From: Eubacteriales bacterium
GTDB taxonomy: Bacteria > Bacillota > Clostridia > Lachnospirales > Lachnospiraceae
Length of the DNA: 64,000 nt
NCBI GenBank assembly: GCA_030537195.1
Contig: JAUNOK010000007.1
Coordinates: 1 to 64,000 of the forward strand
Direction of reading: 5' to 3'
Part shown: positions 57,227-64,000 of the stretch, one piece after another
How the letters are laid out: each line of letters opens with the position of its first letter
Numbering within the stretch: position 1 is the first letter of the stretch
Translations under genes and position numbers: made by a program
Notes under the pieces: generated by a model
Told to the model about the DNA's origin: nothing
What the model saw: the letters and a program-made list of their open reading frames with translations, nothing else
Database searches by the model: none

Positions 57227-58120
57227 TTATCTCTCCCGAATCATGATAATCAGAAGATAAGCCGCTCCGAATACAACTATACTCCCAGCCATGATTAAAT
57301 ACATCTGTGACACGCTCACAACATGCCCTCTGAATACAGGATTGCAGTCGAGAGTGTTTCTTATCACTGTGACCGCTTCTGACGGCATTCCTATATCCGC
57401 CATCTCTTTATACACTCCATTAAGCATGTGATTCTTAATCAGAGAAGTTCCGTATGTTCCCGGAAGGTAAGACAATACCTTCTGCAGCCCTGAACCAAAA
57501 TTAGATATCGGCATGTATGCGCCGCACACAAATCCATATCCTGCACTTACAATAGTTCCGACTGCCGACAGCTGCCCCTGCGTCTTTAACGGATAACTTA
57601 CAATACTTGAAAGCGTGCTTCCGAATAACACGAGCAGAATCATATCCAGTATGATAAATATTACATCTGACGCACTCATATACCAGCCCATTTTCAGTAT
57701 GTAAAGCAGACATAATGCAAGCGCCGTGCCATTAACCATAAGTGAATTAAGCACTGTCGATAAGAAATATCCTATATAAATCTTAGTTTTGCTTACAGGC
57801 GAAACATCAAAATCTTTTCTTGCTCCGCTGGCTCTGTCCTGCACCATCGTAAGATTGACGCAGAACGTAACTGTCACACAGCTTACTGCAAGAAGTGCCG
57901 CTGCTAACTGTGCTGCCACTGTGCCATTAATAACTTTGTCTGATAAAGCAATCATGTCTTTGGTTGCAGAAACGAAGGAGTCTTTGTATACATTTGCTAA
58001 AAATGTTGCATACAAAACGATAAGAATTACCGGAGTTATCATTGATGAGAACAACATTCCTTTGTCCTTAAAAAAGAGTTTTCTGTTTCTGCTTACAAGT
58101 GCTGCTATCTCTTTCATCAC
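57227..58120 (-). CDS. ABC-2 type exporter permease
   Basis: 297 residues with six predicted helices: about 22-42, 105-130, 140-165, 175-195, 215-235 and 270-290. The cytoplasmic start KEIAALVSRNRKLFFKDKGM and the conserved PLKTQGQLSAVGTIVSAGYG segment fit ABC-2 permeases (DrrB/YhgE-like). The ATG overlaps the stop of the ATPase gene by 4 nt. Substrate unknown; drugs, lipids or peptides are possible. The stop is directly followed by the ktrB regulatory repeats. Confidence 0.87.
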   Translation of the reverse strand: MMKEIAALVSRNRKLFFKDKGMLFSSMITPVILIVLYATFLANVYKDSFVSATKDMIALSDKVINGTVAAQLAAALLAVSCVTVTFCVNLTMVQDRASGARKDFDVSPVSKTKIYIGYFLSTVLNSLMVNGTALALCLLYILKMGWYMSASDVIFIILDMILLVLFGSTLSSIVSYPLKTQGQLSAVGTIVSAGYGFVCGAYMPISNFGSGLQKVLSYLPGTYGTSLIKNHMLNGVYKEMADIGMPSEAVTVIRNTLDCNPVFRGHVVSVSQMYLIMAGSIVVFGAAYLLIIMIRER

Positions 58121-59025
58121 TGACCACCTCCCAGTATTTTTCCAGTCACGGCAAGAAATACATCATCCATGCCGCCTTTTACGACCTCGTAATCGCGGAA
58201 TATCTCCTGATGTTTCACAATCATTTTCGTAGCTTCAAGTGTATTCTTAACCTGAATCCTGTAACCATCACGGATTGCTTTGTACTCTGTTCCCAAAGAT
58301 TTAATCTCGTCCTCTGTAACTCCGTACAGAGATATCGTGTCCTGAACATATTCATTCTTTAATTCCAAAGGCGTTCCCTCTGCCACGATACTTCCCTTAT
58401 CAAGAATCACAACATATCCGGCACTTGCCGCCTCCTCCATGTAATGAGTTGTAAGAAATACCGTCATATTCTCCTCTATACGAAGCCTTTCAATAACATT
58501 CCATATAAGAAGTCTTGTCTGCGGATCAAGCCCAGTCGTCGGCTCATCAAGAATCAGTATCTCAGGTCTGTGAATAAGTGCCCTTGCAATATCAATCCTT
58601 CTTCTCTGTCCGCCTGACAGCTTACCAACCGGTCTGTTAATGTAATCTCCGAAATCAAGTATCTCCACCAGTTCTGCCAGTCTCTTTTCAAATGCATTTC
58701 CGGTAATTCCATATAACGCCGCCCTGCTTTTCAGATTCTCCTTAACTGTAAGAGGTTTATCAAGAACACTGTCCTGAAACACAATTCCCAGCATTCTCTT
58801 TGTTTCACTGCCCGCACGCTCTGCGTCTTTATCCTTAATCCACACATTTCCACTGTCCTTGCGAAGCTGCCCGCATATAATAGAAATTGTTGTGCTCTTT
58901 CCCGCACCATTTACACCTAAAAATGCAAACAACTCTCCCTTCTTTACGCGGAAACTTAAGTCAATAACTGCCTTCACATCGCCAAAACATTTATTCAGAT
59001 GTTCTATCTTAATAATATCCGACAT
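58117..59025 (-). CDS. ABC transporter ATP-binding protein
   Basis: 302 residues. Walker A GVNGAGKSTTISIICG, Q-loop FQDSVLDKPLTV, signature LSGGQRRRIDIARALIHR, Walker B EILILDEPTTGLDPQ, H-loop TTHYMEEA. The C-terminal 75 residues are the small regulatory domain typical of DrrA-like exporters. AAGGAGGG lies 9 nt before the ATG. It pairs with the permease gene (4-nt overlap). A frameshifted small gene and LytTR-like repeats lie upstream. Confidence 0.93.
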   Translation of the reverse strand: MSDIIKIEHLNKCFGDVKAVIDLSFRVKKGELFAFLGVNGAGKSTTISIICGQLRKDSGNVWIKDKDAERAGSETKRMLGIVFQDSVLDKPLTVKENLKSRAALYGITGNAFEKRLAELVEILDFGDYINRPVGKLSGGQRRRIDIARALIHRPEILILDEPTTGLDPQTRLLIWNVIERLRIEENMTVFLTTHYMEEAASAGYVVILDKGSIVAEGTPLELKNEYVQDTISLYGVTEDEIKSLGTEYKAIRDGYRIQVKNTLEATKMIVKHQEIFRDYEVVKGGMDDVFLAVTGKILGGGQ

Positions 59026-59478: not shown

Positions 59479-59486
59479 CGGACAGT

Positions 59487-59550
59487 AAAAAAGACACAAA
59501 GCAATGTGTTTCTGAGGAACTACCTCATTTTCACATCTGCTCTGTGTCTT
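59487..59550 (-). terminator. Terminator of the sirtuin/macrodomain operon
   Basis: AAGACACAGAGCA pairs with TGCTTTGTGTCTT; inside are ATGTG/CACAT and TGAGG/CCTCA pairings. A U-run follows on the minus strand (59492-59487). It is about 40 nt past the last stop. Confidence 0.82.
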
Positions 59551-59591
59551 ATATAGCTTATTAAGTTGTATCTCTTATTAAGCTGTGCTTC

Positions 59592-60509
59592 TTAGAATAT
59601 ATCCAGCATATTATCCAGATATATCTCTTCCCTCACATGTATCTGGTACTCCGGCTTCGTCATGTAATACAACAGGAATTCCAGAACCAGTGCACTTCCC
59701 AAGCCACGCCCTTCTATCTTAAAATTAGAAAATCCCATCGGCATATATGTATTCCTGATATCATCAACACTGATAAATGCCGGATTCTCCATTGCCTTAG
59801 AAAATCGGTATCCACTCTGTGAATCCGGTGCAACACATACATGGTCAGGACAGTCCTCGCCAAGATTCTGACGGCTAACAATCTCATAGCAGTTCTTTCT
59901 GTCATAACACCCGAACCAGCAGCACTCATTGCACAGGAATTCCACCTTATCCTTTTCCTTATCTGTCAGCTTCGCAAGCTTGTCAAATGCTTTATTCAGC
60001 CTGAAATCCGGCACTACATACTGGAAATCTTCTCTTTTCACCTCATTTAAAAAATCATTAAAATCCGTCAGCACCTTCGTTGTCGATGATACAAGATAAA
60101 GATTCGGATAATGCTTCTTGATATACTTGGCAAGCATGTCGGAATGTACAATCACGCCATTGCGCACACCTTGGTTCATGCCTTCGCTGTCGTTAAGTGC
60201 CTTACATAATGCATTACATTTTTCATCGGATAAATGTTCTTCACGAAGCAGTGAATTGCTGAATGTCAGCCTTGCCGATATCCCATACTCATTCATCAGA
60301 TTCATAATCTCATGCACGTTATGTTCACCCGAACCGATTCGTCCGCCACCCCAGATACAATCTGCAGGTGCACCATATATCGAGCCAATCTCACACCAGT
60401 CATAGAAATATTCCCTATGCTCACGATATATCGGCAAAAATGCTTCATACAACTCATAGAACTCAAACAATCCCGGAAGATGGTAATACGCCTTCTTTAT
60501 ACTATTCAT
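59592..60509 (-). CDS. U32 peptidase-like TIM-barrel protein with Cys cluster
   Basis: 305 residues, not fully recognised. The pattern of strands NGVIVHSDMLAKYI, LYLVSSTTKVLTDF, YVVPDFRLN and the late FSNFKIEGRGLG resembles the collagenase-like U32 family (FKIEGR is typical), whose members modify RNA, ubiquinone or tRNA and some of which carry Fe-S clusters. A Cys-rich stretch CNECCWFGCYDRKNC (about 198-212) and C-x3-C in GEDCPDHVC suggest a metal or Fe-S site. No signal peptide. It is the last gene of the six-gene operon with the class M sirtuin; the start has only a weak SD, 46 nt after the sirtuin stop. Confidence 0.65.
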   Translation of the reverse strand: MNSIKKAYYHLPGLFEFYELYEAFLPIYREHREYFYDWCEIGSIYGAPADCIWGGGRIGSGEHNVHEIMNLMNEYGISARLTFSNSLLREEHLSDEKCNALCKALNDSEGMNQGVRNGVIVHSDMLAKYIKKHYPNLYLVSSTTKVLTDFNDFLNEVKREDFQYVVPDFRLNKAFDKLAKLTDKEKDKVEFLCNECCWFGCYDRKNCYEIVSRQNLGEDCPDHVCVAPDSQSGYRFSKAMENPAFISVDDIRNTYMPMGFSNFKIEGRGLGSALVLEFLLYYMTKPEYQIHVREEIYLDNMLDIF

Positions 60510-60555
60510 ATCATGTATCTTGCCTGTTATATAACCCGGGTTCCCCGGACAATCA

Positions 60556-61488
60556 TCATAACAGCCTCCTTATAACCTCATCAATATCCTTATTAACACA
60601 GACAGATTTCTCCTTAATCTCATCCGGTGCACATGCTTGTCCATAATTAAGACATATATAATGTGCATGTGACCATTTATCTGTCATCTGCCAAAACGGA
60701 TATTTTATTATAACAGGTGTATTATAACCTATACCAAGCTCTATGAAAACAACATTTAATTCCTTATGTCTTTCTAAAAACTGCTCATACCTCTGTGCTG
60801 CCACATGCCAGCCTTCATCTTCCACAAATGTGTTATCTGCCCTTAAGTTCATGCTCATTGGCTTTCCACATTCAGGACAGTATGGGACAAGTTCTGATGG
60901 AACAGCCATCTTTAAGGTTCTTCCCTCTGGCAGATACAAAGAACCATCCTGTTTAAATTCATATCCCTGTGCCATAACCATTTTCCGTATAGTATCTTCA
61001 TTATCGTATGTTTTCTTATGGCATGGTTCACTGCACTGAAATAAACCATAATCACCCTGTGTATAATATAACCTGTGCTTATCAAAACCCGCCTTCTGGA
61101 AACAGTGGTCTACATTAGTTGTAATAACAAAATAATCTTTAGCCTTAACCAGTTCATATAAATTATCATATACCGGCTTTGGCGCATTCATATATCTGTT
61201 AATATAGATATACCTACTCCAGAATGCCCAATGCTCCTCTAATGTCTGATATGGATAAAATCCGCCAGAATACATGTCAGTAAATTTATATTTTCCCTTA
61301 AAATCAGAAAAATATTTATCAAATCTCTCTCCGTTATAAGTAAATCCTGCTGATGTTGAAAGTCCGGCTCCTGCACCAATAACTATGGCATCTGCAGTTG
61401 CAGTTAATTCTTTTATATCTGACAGTTTATCCTCATAACTTCTGTCATCATTGTCATTATTCATCCATCTTTTAAATAACATATCCAT
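60556..61488 (-). CDS. Class M sirtuin (SirTM), protein ADP-ribosyltransferase type
   Basis: About 310 residues; ATGs at 61491, 61488 and 61482 are all possible, with AGAAGG upstream fitting 61482 best. Rossmann NAD loop GAGAGLSTSAGF (about 39-50), then TTNVDHCF (Asn126 in longest numbering) and TQGDYGLFQC with Gln145 where deacylase sirtuins have His. The 19-residue Asn-Gln spacing matches the catalytic pair described for SirTM enzymes, which ADP-ribosylate proteins rather than deacetylate. Zinc cysteines: CSEPC (153, 157) and CPEC (205, 208). It follows the zinc macrodomain gene by about 7 nt, the known SirTM/macrodomain pairing. No GcvH-L or lipoate ligase gene, the usual targets, is in the window. 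Confidence 0.88.
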   Translation of the reverse strand: MDMLFKRWMNNDNDDRSYEDKLSDIKELTATADAIVIGAGAGLSTSAGFTYNGERFDKYFSDFKGKYKFTDMYSGGFYPYQTLEEHWAFWSRYIYINRYMNAPKPVYDNLYELVKAKDYFVITTNVDHCFQKAGFDKHRLYYTQGDYGLFQCSEPCHKKTYDNEDTIRKMVMAQGYEFKQDGSLYLPEGRTLKMAVPSELVPYCPECGKPMSMNLRADNTFVEDEGWHVAAQRYEQFLERHKELNVVFIELGIGYNTPVIIKYPFWQMTDKWSHAHYICLNYGQACAPDEIKEKSVCVNKDIDEVIRRLL

Positions 61489-61495
61489 CATCCTT

Positions 61496-62275
61496 CTACG
61501 CTAGAAGATTTCTATATATTCTTAAATCTTCATCCTTAAAAACATTAAATATAACTTTCTCCACTCTGTTATCTTTATCAAGAAATTCTTTAACTGTCCG
61601 GACTGCAATCTGTGCTGCCATCTGCTGTGGAAATCTGAACACACCCGTTGACAGACAGCAGAATGCTATTGATTTCACTCCATTTTCAGCCGCCAGTTTC
61701 ATACATTCCCTGTAACAGCCAGCAAGCAGTTCCTCATCTTCTCTGGTAACCTCCCACTGGATAATTGGTCCTACCGTGTGGAGTATATATTTTGCCGGTA
61801 AATTGTAACCTGATGTTATCTTTGCCTTTCCTGTTTCCTCTTCATGCCCCTGTTCAAGCATTATTTCATTCATCTTAAGCCTTAACTCTACTCCTGCATA
61901 TGTGTGAATAAAATTATCAATACAGGCATGCATGGGTGAAAAGCAGCCTAACATCTGGGAGTTACAGGCATTAACTATCGCATCACATTTTAATGTAGTA
62001 ATGTCACCCTGCCATATATACAGTCTGCTATCCGTCATAACCGGCTTTAAGTCTCTGATATCTGTAATTCCTCGTTCTGCATTTCTCTGTTGCAGATATT
62101 CATCCTGTATCTTCAGAAATTCTTCACTGACTGGCATCGGCATCCTCACATTCATAAGAGAACGAAGAAGATTTTCCTGTTCCACCTTTTCAGCAGGTAT
62201 CTTATGCCTGCGAATCCTTGTTTCTTCTTTTAAAAGATATTTAATTAAATATATTCTTCTTTCTTCCTGTGTCAT
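61496..62275 (-). CDS. Zinc-containing macrodomain (protein-ADP-ribose hydrolase)
   Basis: 259 residues. An N-terminal helical extension of about 75 residues precedes the macrodomain. Motifs: WQGDITTLKCDAIVNACNSQ (GDI near 90, NACN near 102-105), the zinc loop LGCFSPMHACID (Cys111, His116, Cys118), GKAKITSGYNLPAKYILHT and CLSTGVFRFPQ. The zinc loop and extension mark the bacterial Zn-macro group that removes ADP-ribose attached by SirTM. It therefore reverses the sirtuin encoded next. It starts 13 nt after the PNPOx-ferredoxin stop and lies in the same operon. Confidence 0.9.
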   Translation of the reverse strand: MTQEERRIYLIKYLLKEETRIRRHKIPAEKVEQENLLRSLMNVRMPMPVSEEFLKIQDEYLQQRNAERGITDIRDLKPVMTDSRLYIWQGDITTLKCDAIVNACNSQMLGCFSPMHACIDNFIHTYAGVELRLKMNEIMLEQGHEEETGKAKITSGYNLPAKYILHTVGPIIQWEVTREDEELLAGCYRECMKLAAENGVKSIAFCCLSTGVFRFPQQMAAQIAVRTVKEFLDKDNRVEKVIFNVFKDEDLRIYRNLLA

Positions 62276-62288
62276 GATACATACCCCA

Positions 62289-62900
62289 CTATAATCTTTT
62301 TATACATCTGCCTGGACATACCTCTGCGCAATTACCACAGTGCAGGCAATGATTCTGCTGAATTGAAAAAGGTGTTCCTTCAATAATACATCTTTGAGGA
62401 CAGTTCTTCTTGCATATTCCACATCCAATACATGCCTCTGTTATAATATACCCCTTTTCTCTCTTTACTGCATTTCCTAAAATATATGTATCTCTGAAAA
62501 TCGGATTAACTCCAAGATTAAAATACTCAACCTCTGCTTTATCAATGCAGAATATTATGCCAATGCTTCTTGTATCTCCCGGATACACATTTGCAAGATA
62601 TGGCTGTTCCTCAAATATCTTATCACACCACATCTCCTGTTCTTCATCTGCTACAGCATATGCCTTTCCTGATAAACGAATCATTTCTTTATATCTTGTA
62701 TAGCACAAAATCTGCACCCTGCCATCTTCCATTAACTCCCTGCAGAAATTCTTTCCTCTTGCCGTGAAAAAATACAATGCATTTTCCTCGTAATGAATTG
62801 CACTTATATTTCGTATCTGCGGAGCGCCATCACTATCTACTGTTGCAAATGCAAGAACTCCAACAAGCTGCATTTTCTTTAAACATGTCTGTAAATCCAT
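62289..62900 (-). CDS. Pyridoxamine-5'-phosphate-oxidase-like flavoprotein fused to a 2[4Fe-4S] ferredoxin
   Basis: 203 residues from the ATG at 62900 with GGAGG 8 nt upstream. The N-terminal split beta-barrel (about 1-135), with VGVLAFATVDSDGAPQIRNI and YFFTARGKNFCREL, is a PNPOx-like FMN-binding domain. The C-terminal part (about 150-203) has two [4Fe-4S] motifs: CIGCGICKKNCPQRC and CLHCGNCAEVCPGRC. This combination transfers electrons between Fe-S clusters and flavin. Substrate unknown. It follows the nitroreductase by 26 nt and precedes the Zn-macrodomain by 13 nt. Confidence 0.88.
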   Translation of the reverse strand: MDLQTCLKKMQLVGVLAFATVDSDGAPQIRNISAIHYEENALYFFTARGKNFCRELMEDGRVQILCYTRYKEMIRLSGKAYAVADEEQEMWCDKIFEEQPYLANVYPGDTRSIGIIFCIDKAEVEYFNLGVNPIFRDTYILGNAVKREKGYIITEACIGCGICKKNCPQRCIIEGTPFSIQQNHCLHCGNCAEVCPGRCIKRL

Positions 62901-62926
62901 ATGATATTCCTCCAATAAATAGTTAT

Positions 62927-63502
62927 TTAACCGATTATCTTAACCCTGCCCGTCTTTCTCGGCTTGCTGTGTGGCTGCTCACCATTAATATAGCCAAGAA
63001 TCACAAATCCCTGACATGCATAACCTTCTGGCACGCCCCATTCTTCCATCAATTTTTTACCTTCTTCTGATGCAAATGTTTCATAACCCCTTGAAACTAT
63101 ACACGAAGCAATTCCAAGTTCAGTCGCCTGTAAAATCATATTTTCCATCATGCAGAAAGCGTCTGCTGTCTTGAACAAAAAGTTGTCCTGACAAAATACA
63201 CATATAACCGTTGGTGCATCATAAAATCCATTCTTTATTGATGGATCATCTATTGTACTTGGCTGTTCTTTTGACACATAGCTGCCTGCCAGATGTGTAC
63301 GGTCGAAGTGTGCCATATTCATTTTGCCAACATATGTCGTCATCTCTTTGTTATGAATGGCAACCATCATACTTCTCTGCCCGCCTCCGGCATTAGGCGC
63401 ATAATTGCCGGCTTCCAGAATCTTTTCCAAATCATTAAGGCTTATCTGCTCATCAGTATATTTTCTGATAGAATGTCTTGCTTTAATAATATCCATTAAC
63501 AT
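62927..63502 (-). CDS. Nitroreductase-family FMN oxidoreductase
   Basis: 191 residues from the ATG at 63502, whose A is the last base of the radical SAM stop (TGATG), so translation is coupled. Nitroreductase features: IIKARHSIRKYTDEQISLND (FMN phosphate Arg), AGNYAPNAGGGQ, FCMMENMILQATELGIASC and GVPEGYACQGFVILG. It is a compact form of about 190 residues, usually dimeric with FMN. It could reduce a peptide or small-molecule product of the neighbouring radical SAM protein. Confidence 0.9.
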   Translation of the reverse strand: MLMDIIKARHSIRKYTDEQISLNDLEKILEAGNYAPNAGGGQRSMMVAIHNKEMTTYVGKMNMAHFDRTHLAGSYVSKEQPSTIDDPSIKNGFYDAPTVICVFCQDNFLFKTADAFCMMENMILQATELGIASCIVSRGYETFASEEGKKLMEEWGVPEGYACQGFVILGYINGEQPHSKPRKTGRVKIIG

Positions 63503-64000
63503 CACAATTTCTCCCCGGTAATCTCATTTCTTGTCTTCCAGCACTGCGGATCAGACGCATAGAAACTACTGCTTGTACCATTAGCAACTGCTGGACAGCC
63601 TCTGCACCATGCCTTCAATTCACATTTGCTGCATTTCTCAAATCTATTGTAATCCCTGTATTTCTCCATCTGACATACCCATACATCTGCCAGACGGTCT
63701 TCAAATACATTTGCAATCTTACTGTCTGTAACTCTTCTGCATGCCATTACATCTCCATTTGAAGAGATTGTTATATGGCAGTTTCCACAGTTGCAGCCAC
63801 CATAAATCATTCCTTTCTCTGCATTTTCAGGAAGCTTAAACTGCCCTGTCTCATATTCATACAGAGTCCACAAATGGTCTTTTTTATTAAAATAAGTCTC
63901 ACACCCTGCCTTTTCATATGCCCTATACTTAGCGTCACAGATTTCCAGAAGCTTTCTATACTCCTGCGGAGTCATGCTCGTATCAACCTCGCCGCCTGTA
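63502..64000 (-). CDS. Radical SAM protein, C-terminal SPASM part (partial at window edge)
   Basis: The frame enters from the right edge (TGGEVDTSMTPQEYRKLLEI) and ends at 63502; about 165 residues are visible. The rest, including the CxxxCxxC SAM cluster, lies outside. Visible is a SPASM auxiliary Fe-S domain: CNCGNCHITISSNGDVMACR, then KCSKCELKAWCRGCPAVANG and SDPQCW. SPASM enzymes typically modify peptides (RiPPs) or proteins. The C-G-x-C spacing and the ensuing nitroreductase are compatible with peptide maturation, but no precursor peptide is visible. An ATG at 63975 is internal, since the frame continues upstream. Confidence 0.85.
   Translation of the reverse strand, partial: TGGEVDTSMTPQEYRKLLEICDAKYRAYEKAGCETYFNKKDHLWTLYEYETGQFKLPENAEKGMIYGGCNCGNCHITISSNGDVMACRRVTDSKIANVFEDRLADVWVCQMEKYRDYNRFEKCSKCELKAWCRGCPAVANGTSSSFYASDPQCWKTRNEITGEKL

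Follow-up and report, generated by a model that had tools for sequence, protein, structure and literature searches.

The window analysed here comprises the first 64,000 nucleotides (nt) of contig JAUNOK010000007.1 (assembly GCA_030537195.1), from a Eubacteriales bacterium of the family Lachnospiraceae, and ends within an operon in which a class M sirtuin (SirTM) and a zinc-dependent macrodomain (Zn-macro) accompany redox genes and a radical S-adenosylmethionine (SAM) enzyme gene. Open reading frames revealed six co-oriented minus-strand genes in the region 59592..64000. The radical SAM and nitroreductase genes overlap by 4 nt, and the genes that follow are separated by gaps of 11, 13, 4 and 46 nt. 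The window edge at 64000 truncates the operon inside its first gene, that of the radical SAM enzyme, which continues on the contig to ~64575, its likely start. An initial annotation made from the window alone had described six same-strand genes, the radical SAM gene partial, ending in one terminator; the reading frames, protein families and RNA folding confirmed this layout. It had also suggested looking for a precursor peptide past 64000, where a gene for a 64-residue ACGX-repeat peptide was found. The features of the locus, with contig numbering continued past the window edge, are as follows.

64935-65321 (L002:2935-3321), plus strand: divergent HxlR-type regulator; NCBIfam matches to RrpB and RrpA under cut-off
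64603-64797 (L002:2603-2797), minus strand: acgA-type ACGX-repeat peptide, 64 amino acids; TIGR04341 80.2 bits against a cut-off of 28
63502..64000, minus strand: acgM-type radical SAM/SPASM enzyme, 3' part; SPASM over its Pfam cut-off, CDQRCKHC cluster motif
62927..63505, minus strand: nitroreductase-family flavin mononucleotide (FMN) oxidoreductase; PF00881 84.7 bits against a cut-off of 23.5
62289..62915, minus strand: fusion of a PNPOx-like FMN domain and a 2[4Fe-4S] ferredoxin; PF01243 and PF00037 over cut-off
61496..62275, minus strand: zinc-dependent macrodomain, predicted ADP-ribosyl hydrolase; NF003163 365.5 against 272 bits, Macro over its Pfam cut-off
60556..61491, minus strand: class M sirtuin (SirTM), predicted protein ADP-ribosyltransferase; profile match to PDB 5a3a, catalytic N/Q/R, GxGxNTP motif
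59592..60509, minus strand: U32-peptidase-like Cys-rich protein, a co-oriented, non-conserved operon neighbour; Pfam U32 under cut-off, fold match to 5d88
59485..59550 (hairpin 59491-59550 plus T-run), minus strand: intrinsic terminator of the operon; RNA folding

The name 'ACGX system' is used in NCBIfam for the pair of a radical SAM enzyme, 'acgM' (TIGR04340), and a peptide, 'acgA' (TIGR04341). Both proteins of the operon exceed the curated cut-offs and their genes are adjacent; the radical SAM enzyme scored 581.5 bits against TIGR04340, a 'hypoth_equivalog' model with a cut-off of 400. The peptide, MALSNIFGWNKKTEAQPSAACGTACGASDKPEEKPAACGTACGASDKPEEKPAACGAACGASDK, carries the leader MALSNIFGW followed by ACG repeats. 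Its gene has a good ribosome-binding site and ends 27 nt upstream of the likely radical SAM start. Searching the whole genome recovered this peptide (C28:64606-64797) and no second match to the family at E 1. Judged from these family assignments, the radical SAM enzyme would modify the ACGX peptide. The NCBIfam names cover the peptide and the radical SAM enzyme only, whereas here a SirTM/Zn-macro/flavoenzyme module is added, and no description of such an addition was met in the literature search. Among the matches listed from the open-licence literature, no paper was recognised on ACGX, or on radical SAM enzymes or ribosomally synthesized and post-translationally modified peptides (RiPPs) together with a sirtuin or ADP-ribosylation; one may exist. 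We conclude that the locus is an operon of the ACGX system into which a class M sirtuin and a zinc macrodomain have been recruited.

The assignment of the sirtuin to class M holds at the level of sequence, and ADP-ribosyltransferase activity is predicted. Its SIR2 Pfam score is slightly under the cut-off (22.2 vs 24 bits), and its top PDB profile match is 5a3a, the enzyme of Streptococcus pyogenes (SpySirTM), at E 1e-91. Residues N126, Q145 and R217 align with Asn118, Gln137 and Arg192 of SpySirTM and are invariant in 20/20 aligned sequences; mutation of these SpySirTM residues cut activity strongly (PMC4518038). Q145 stands in place of the catalytic His, as is characteristic of class M, and the GVGx[NT]TP motif reads GIGYNTP, with Ile for the Val seen in the other alignment rows. 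The macrodomain gene lies 4 nt upstream. Its product matches the NCBIfam protein-ADP-ribose hydrolase equivalog NF003163 (365.5 bits, cut-off 272), has PDB 8rsi as its top profile match (E 2e-108; near full-length to 8rsi and 5kiv), and retains a zinc loop (G110-C111, P114, H116-x-C118; pattern GC....H.C), which in Zn-macro proteins replaces the Gly-rich catalytic loop and is invariant in 13/13 macrodomain sequences. It is thus of the Zn-macro type, with predicted ADP-ribosyl hydrolase activity. The catalytic residues, zinc loop and PDB matches support the SirTM/Zn-macro pair named in the initial annotation. According to published work, one zinc macrodomain hydrolyses Cys-linked ADP-ribose (PMC8360141), and zinc macrodomains also act on Asp/Glu-linked ADP-ribose (PMC8360141, PMC11490716).

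The only published SirTM target system is lipoyl-GcvH-L with its lipoate ligase. SpySirTM acts on GcvH-L, a carrier encoded in the same operon, once this has been lipoylated, Asp27 being the likely site (PMC4518038); in S. pyogenes and Staphylococcus aureus the carrier in its lipoylated form is bound by a flavoenzyme of the operon (PMC4518038, PMC11490716). The extended operon of these two species comprises GcvH-L, Zn-macro, SirTM and LplA2 with an old yellow enzyme and a luciferase-like monooxygenase. GcvH-L and LplA2 had been noted as unseen in the window. Neither lies just beyond it: the whole genome, which is 99.84% complete, contains no match at E 0.001 to GcvH (PF01597) or to LplA2/lipoate ligase (PF21948), each of which matched 13/14 control genomes.

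The present operon resembles the extended one in that SirTM adjoins Zn-macro, in its flavin oxidoreductases and in its small putative carrier with a modifying enzyme of its own; a connection with thiol or oxidative stress would be a further common feature (PMC4518038, PMC11490716). It differs in having a Cys-Gly repeat peptide where the other has lipoyl-GcvH-L, and a radical SAM/SPASM modifying enzyme where the other has a lipoate ligase. The flavoenzymes differ too. Old yellow enzyme and luciferase-like oxidoreductases are absent from the operon, whose flavoproteins are the nitroreductase (PF00881) and the PNPOx-ferredoxin protein (PF01243/Fer4; both ferredoxin and PNPOx chains were matched in PDB). 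Minimal loci have also been described, with lone SirTM/Zn-macro pairs in Enterococcus faecalis and Treponema pedis and a minimal operon in M. oralis (PMC11490716). They contain the same two enzymes and are frequent in this bacterial family; as described in PMC11490716, they have neither carrier peptide nor radical SAM gene in cis. As far as the literature searched shows, the operon represents a second type of extended SirTM operon that has not been described before and whose core is the orphan ACGX system.

The association recurs in other genomes. The ACGX radical SAM family was found in 38 of 299 genomes of the same family, the genome under study included, and 38 neighbourhoods other than its own were examined. 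Script counts gave the peptide in 28, an HxlR-type regulator in 31, nitroreductase in 19 and a PNPOx-type gene in 22; one or other of these two flavoprotein genes was present at 30/38. On inspection, at least two further loci have the peptide (L046 and, as a fusion, L047). SirTM was present at 22/38 loci and Zn-macro at 13/38, never without SirTM (0/38). These numbers are lower bounds, since four loci have <3.5 kb downstream. SirTM lies downstream and on the same strand in 20/22 positive loci and is divergent in L046 and L054. Chance adjacency was rejected: linkage at 22/38 loci has a binomial tail of ~4e-43 at a background of ~0.004 per 12-kb neighbourhood and of ~2e-34 at 0.01, both backgrounds being assumed values. 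Because matches to the SirTM profile are common in the family (170/299 genomes at E <= 1e-20, divergent sirtuins included), presence anywhere in the genome was tested as well. By hand count, SirTM matches occur in 33/37 other radical SAM genomes of the family vs 136/261 without the radical SAM gene (p 7e-6).

A similar association was observed in 398 genomes across the phylum, where the radical SAM gene occurs in 11 and SirTM in 19. With the genome under study excluded, SirTM was present in 6/10 radical SAM genomes vs 12/387 others (p 7e-7). The two genes are linked at 4/10 loci (G517, G365, G632 and G610), a count that retains L206 and L207, whose radical SAM scores are far under those of other loci; in G528 and G621 the two sit on separate contigs, with SirTM matches that are fragmentary or weaker. 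The sample contains one genome of the same genus, and since neither the radical SAM enzyme nor SirTM nor Zn-macro has a match in it, the unit is accessory. The initial annotation had linked the SirTM/Zn-macro pair to a radical SAM/flavin operon, and recurrence in family and phylum loci supports that link. Its proposed grouping of radical SAM, nitroreductase, PNPOx-ferredoxin, Zn-macro, SirTM and U32 genes recurs well beyond this genome except for the U32 gene, detected in 0/38 loci at the cut-offs used. With the grouping so conserved and no GcvH-L or LplA2 match in the genome, neither of the findings that it had named as fatal to its proposal, absence of the grouping from related genomes or lipoyl genes next to the window, was made.

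The association has also arisen or been lost repeatedly. In a tree of 141 SirTM profile sequences, the label of the 35 ACGX-linked ones changes 24 times, and well-supported branches force at least 9 of these changes; a single origin of ACGX-linked sirtuins was rejected on this quick tree. The ACGX labels are somewhat clustered (0/500 shuffles as low). Long branches (two L054 paralogues and L160) are unreliable in this tree, and L087, labelled 'other', is truncated where its contig stops and could belong to the ACGX loci. The radical SAM tree covered 47/52 loci, two repeats (L133, L159) and three loci with <60% of the radical SAM model having been dropped. SirTM presence on it requires 12 changes, at least 5 forced, and SirTM is present in 10/10 members of the well-supported clade that holds the radical SAM enzyme of the window operon. 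The Zn-macro tree gives weaker evidence of the same kind, with 18 changes, of which at least 5 are forced, and 22/500 shuffles as low. The forced changes indicate that the pair entered or left the ACGX operon many times. Such gain and loss would be expected of a useful exchangeable switch and equally of a drifting stress module. The two L054 paralogues are tandem SirTM-like genes (L054:4806-6603, plus strand) on very long branches; one keeps QG at the catalytic place and the other has EG, and they are possibly inactive or altered sirtuins.

Named relatives extend the range of the system. The named SirTM loci (L112-L191) are the best 80 of 588 relatives, and for that reason they lean to query-like sirtuins. 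An ACGX radical SAM gene lies near SirTM in 13/80, among them Blautia sp. An249, Kineothrix sp. MSJ-39, Lachnospiraceae bacterium NK3A20, Oscillospiraceae metagenome-assembled genomes (MAGs) and two Treponema MAGs. On a Roseburia sp. 831b plasmid, annotated with the names acgA and acgM, the genes run in the order acgA, acgM, nitroreductase, 4Fe-4S protein, protein-ADP-ribose hydrolase, Sir2 and a DUF1848 gene. A Subdoligranulum variabile plasmid carries peptide, radical SAM, nitroreductase, PNPOx, SirTM and Zn-macro genes. Zn-macro and SirTM occur in either order among the Treponema MAG and plasmid loci. Forty further family SirTM matches away from ACGX radical SAM genes, mostly the better-scoring ones, were also examined. 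Around minimal SirTM/Zn-macro pairs (L072-L111, L112-L191) an HxlR-type regulator is often nearby and some pairs have a PNPOx-like gene directly upstream, one example being Ruminococcus flavefaciens FD-1 (L158). Redox flavoproteins may accompany the pair generally.

ACGX-like genes also appear on an archaeal plasmid and on IMG/VR contigs. Plasmid pNP174 of Methanosphaera sp. ISO3-F5 (L209:5431-9015) carries an ACGxE-repeat peptide, a radical SAM enzyme as two genes or frames, a dehydrogenase and a 4Fe-4S protein matched by the PNPOx profile, with BREX defence genes close by; no SirTM was found within the 15 kb examined. A 24-kb IMG/VR contig (L211:5737-8322) has ACGX peptide, radical SAM, nitroreductase-like and HxlR-like genes, a small gene that by eye resembles a monooxygenase, and a phage-type amidase gene nearby. 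IMGVR_UViG_3300028886_000026 (504 kb, with a tail-collar gene) encodes an ACGX-family radical SAM enzyme (L212:5941-7026, plus strand; 480.6 vs 400 bits), and no repeat peptide was found in the 13 kb examined around it.

Peptide composition was compared in 38 sequences, L133 and L159 being left out as repeats of L052 and L050, whose contigs have the same lengths. Gly follows Cys at 243/244 Cys residues past residue 14, an Asp or Glu lies within 5 residues after CG in 134/146 segments, and the C-x3-C spacing is regular in ACGTACG units. Neighbouring reading frames were clustered over 58 loci, again without these repeats and without L206 and L207 with their low radical SAM scores; most clusters were judged by eye. 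Flavoenzymes, a zinc-type dehydrogenase and DUF1848 proteins recur in operon position, and no exporter or peptidase was recognised there. The dehydrogenase directly follows the radical SAM gene in 9/58 loci (three Pfam-checked), with a tenth cluster member upstream of it. The DUF1848 cluster is present in 4/58 (one Pfam-checked) and additionally on the Roseburia plasmid; in some ACGX operons the gene after SirTM encodes a DUF1848 protein whose C-terminus bears a Cys cluster (L055:7472-8449, L208:11001-11942). The nitroreductase and PNPOx genes are exchangeable between loci, and the precursor and radical SAM genes are the most constant part.

One of the 58 loci contains a fusion. At L047:9917-10669 (minus strand), upstream of an ACGX-family radical SAM gene, a flavin reductase domain (PF01613, E 3e-12) carries a C-terminal ACGX leader (leader-like LSQLAGW) and repeats, scoring 33.7 vs 28 bits with TIGR04341. 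Some clostridial flavin reductases have a rubredoxin domain at the corresponding place. The fusion fits an intracellular, flavin-coupled role of the peptide.

The regulator encoded divergently from the operon has RrpB as its best NCBIfam match (120.3 bits, cut-off 175), RrpA likewise falling under cut-off. The N-terminal Cys is kept in 37/37 HxlR-type hits near ACGX radical SAM genes (35 by motif, two by eye); this check covered the hits >150 bits, at 37 of 41 loci with a hit, and two of the 37 are the repeat records. HxlR-type regulators of Bacillus subtilis respond to disulfide, quinone and aldehyde stress, and the genes they control include a nitroreductase (PMC6943732). The HypR, YodB and CatR-type HxlR/DUF24 regulons described there share with the present locus an N-terminal-Cys regulator, flavin/nitroreductases and a connection to thiol or quinone stress; they differ in that peptide, radical SAM and ADP-ribosylation genes are not named in what PMC6943732 says of these regulons.

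These observations suggest a model in which the radical SAM-modified peptide acts as an intracellular redox carrier that SirTM and Zn-macro switch by ADP-ribosylation; we give it a probability of roughly 50%. The HxlR-type regulator would sense thiol-reactive stress through its N-terminal Cys and release the operon. The radical SAM/SPASM enzyme would then modify the precursor, probably at or beside the Cys-Gly pairs, and the modified peptide, remaining intracellular and redox-active, could exchange electrons with the nitroreductase, the PNPOx-ferredoxin protein and, elsewhere, the zinc-type dehydrogenase. SirTM, using NAD+, would ADP-ribosylate the peptide on the Asp or Glu that usually follows an ACG unit, or on Cys, taking it out of the redox cycle, and the zinc macrodomain would strip the ADP-ribose. 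The initial annotation had proposed that a redox protein of the operon may replace the usual target. We would change this part of it: the ACGX peptide appears the better candidate, and the nitroreductase and PNPOx-ferredoxin genes are exchangeable between loci. The peptide is a likely target because it and the radical SAM enzyme hold the places that, in S. pyogenes and S. aureus, belong to the SirTM target, a small operon carrier, and to the operon enzyme that modifies this carrier first. It would also suit the zinc macrodomain, since it offers both Cys and Asp/Glu acceptors. We give the claim that the peptide is the ADP-ribosylation target about even odds. A fuller form of the proposal is more tentative, namely that SirTM reversibly ADP-ribosylates a radical SAM-modified Cys-Gly repeat peptide, possibly on Cys. 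In this form of the proposal the modified peptide would be a gene-encoded redox carrier that does, as a ribosomal product, what the lipoyl arm does, and its coupling to flavoproteins would be in trans or, in the case of L047, through its being their own C-terminal tail.

Several results weigh against the switched-carrier model. In the family, 16/38 radical SAM loci have no SirTM nearby (4/16 with <3.5 kb downstream), so that ADP-ribosylation must be dispensable for the core system. Zn-macro is missing in cis from 9/22 SirTM-positive loci; seven of these nine genomes have a match elsewhere, and the remaining two (89% and 84% complete) have none at E 1e-40. No ACGX radical SAM gene was seen at 67/80 of the named SirTM loci (best 80 of 588) in the sequence examined, some of which ends at contig ends; with most SirTM genes seen lying elsewhere, the pair must have other targets too. 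SirTM presence on the radical SAM tree is no more clustered than in shuffles (167/500 as low). Some peptides lack Asp (Treponema L169, L063). A peptide signature of SirTM-positive loci, sought in simple counts, was absent: peptides with and without SirTM (27 vs 11) are alike in length and in Cys, Asp and Glu counts, so no measured feature marks the peptide as a SirTM target. An ABC-ATPase cluster lies within 6 kb of the radical SAM gene in 7/58 loci, on either strand and ~5 kb away, the present locus included, where it is beyond the terminator.

It is possible, if somewhat doubtful, that HxlR control brings together two independent thiol-stress modules, the ACGX genes on the one hand and the SirTM/Zn-macro pair on the other, with the flavoenzymes or an unlinked protein rather than the peptide as the substrate of SirTM. 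Pairs without ACGX are indeed common, often near an HxlR-type regulator and sometimes near an Rrf2-like (by eye) or PNPOx-like gene, the trees show frequent exchange, and the lack of any measured peptide feature that co-varies with SirTM is as this would predict. Independence does not readily account for a pair that is co-directional and downstream in 20/22 SirTM-positive loci and here, with gaps of a few bases, forms no separate unit, nor for the exchange of nitroreductase and PNPOx genes around a precursor and radical SAM enzyme that are the most constant part.

Other functions of the peptide were also considered. The regular C-x3-C spacing in ACGTACG units and the 4Fe-4S protein and radical SAM enzyme of the operon would be compatible with a Cys-rich metallopeptide, a metal or cluster ligand whose loading is controlled by ADP-ribosylation of Cys or acidic residues, as would the suitability of zinc macrodomains for Cys-ADP-ribose (PMC8360141). 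This is improbable, however: no metal transporter or metallochaperone was recognised, mostly by eye, among the reading-frame clusters present in at least 3 of the 58 loci, and the regulator is of the HxlR type that in B. subtilis answers disulfide, quinone and aldehyde stress (PMC6943732). More unlikely still is a secreted RiPP, antimicrobial or signal, with SirTM as a tailoring or self-protection enzyme. Leader, repeats and radical SAM/SPASM maturase do make up the standard RiPP layout, SirTM without Zn-macro in cis at 9/22 loci is as expected of a tailoring enzyme, and within 6 kb the ABC-ATPase cluster is found in 7 of the 58 loci and a MATE-like cluster, recognised by eye, in 3. The transporter clusters are nevertheless few and several kb off, the ABC cluster occurs on either strand, and no peptidase cluster was recognised; moreover, one flavin reductase carries the peptide as its C-terminal tail, and the partners of the peptide are redox enzymes of cytoplasmic type.

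Beside a SirTM/Zn-macro pair the operon sets a small, defined and chemically simple candidate target, and the genome yielded no GcvH match; the target question is therefore directly testable with few proteins and one peptide. If the switched-carrier model is true, sirtuins can act on RiPP-type peptides, extending ADP-ribosylation to this class, and the Cys-ADP-ribose hydrolase activity of zinc macrodomains would gain a natural substrate should the modified residue be Cys. The orphan ACGX peptide family, for its part, gains a likely cellular setting in thiol or electrophile stress and flavin coupling.

The last gene of the operon encodes a protein without a Pfam match at E 0.001; against PF01136 it scored 12.7 bits (cut-off 22.4, E 0.079). 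Its AlphaFold model has a mean pLDDT of 62, and the top PDB fold match is the U32 peptidase 5d88 (E 1.6e-3, TM scores 0.42/0.50). On this model, which is of only medium confidence, the fold may be U32-like, in line with the initial annotation. Inclusion of this protein in the conserved unit, as the same annotation had it, was rejected: homologues are present in 62/299 family genomes, the genome under study included, and at the cut-offs used none was detected in the 38 related ACGX neighbourhoods. The gene is a local neighbour that may be co-transcribed here. The terminator that follows has a minimum free energy of -40 kcal/mol (z -7.7), which 0/200 shuffles equalled. A simple consensus scan did not list it, and the promoter and terminator counts of that scan were close to the shuffled mean. 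Beyond the terminator, at 57227-59025 of the window on the minus strand, lies a pair of genes for an ABC-2 type permease and an ABC ATPase.

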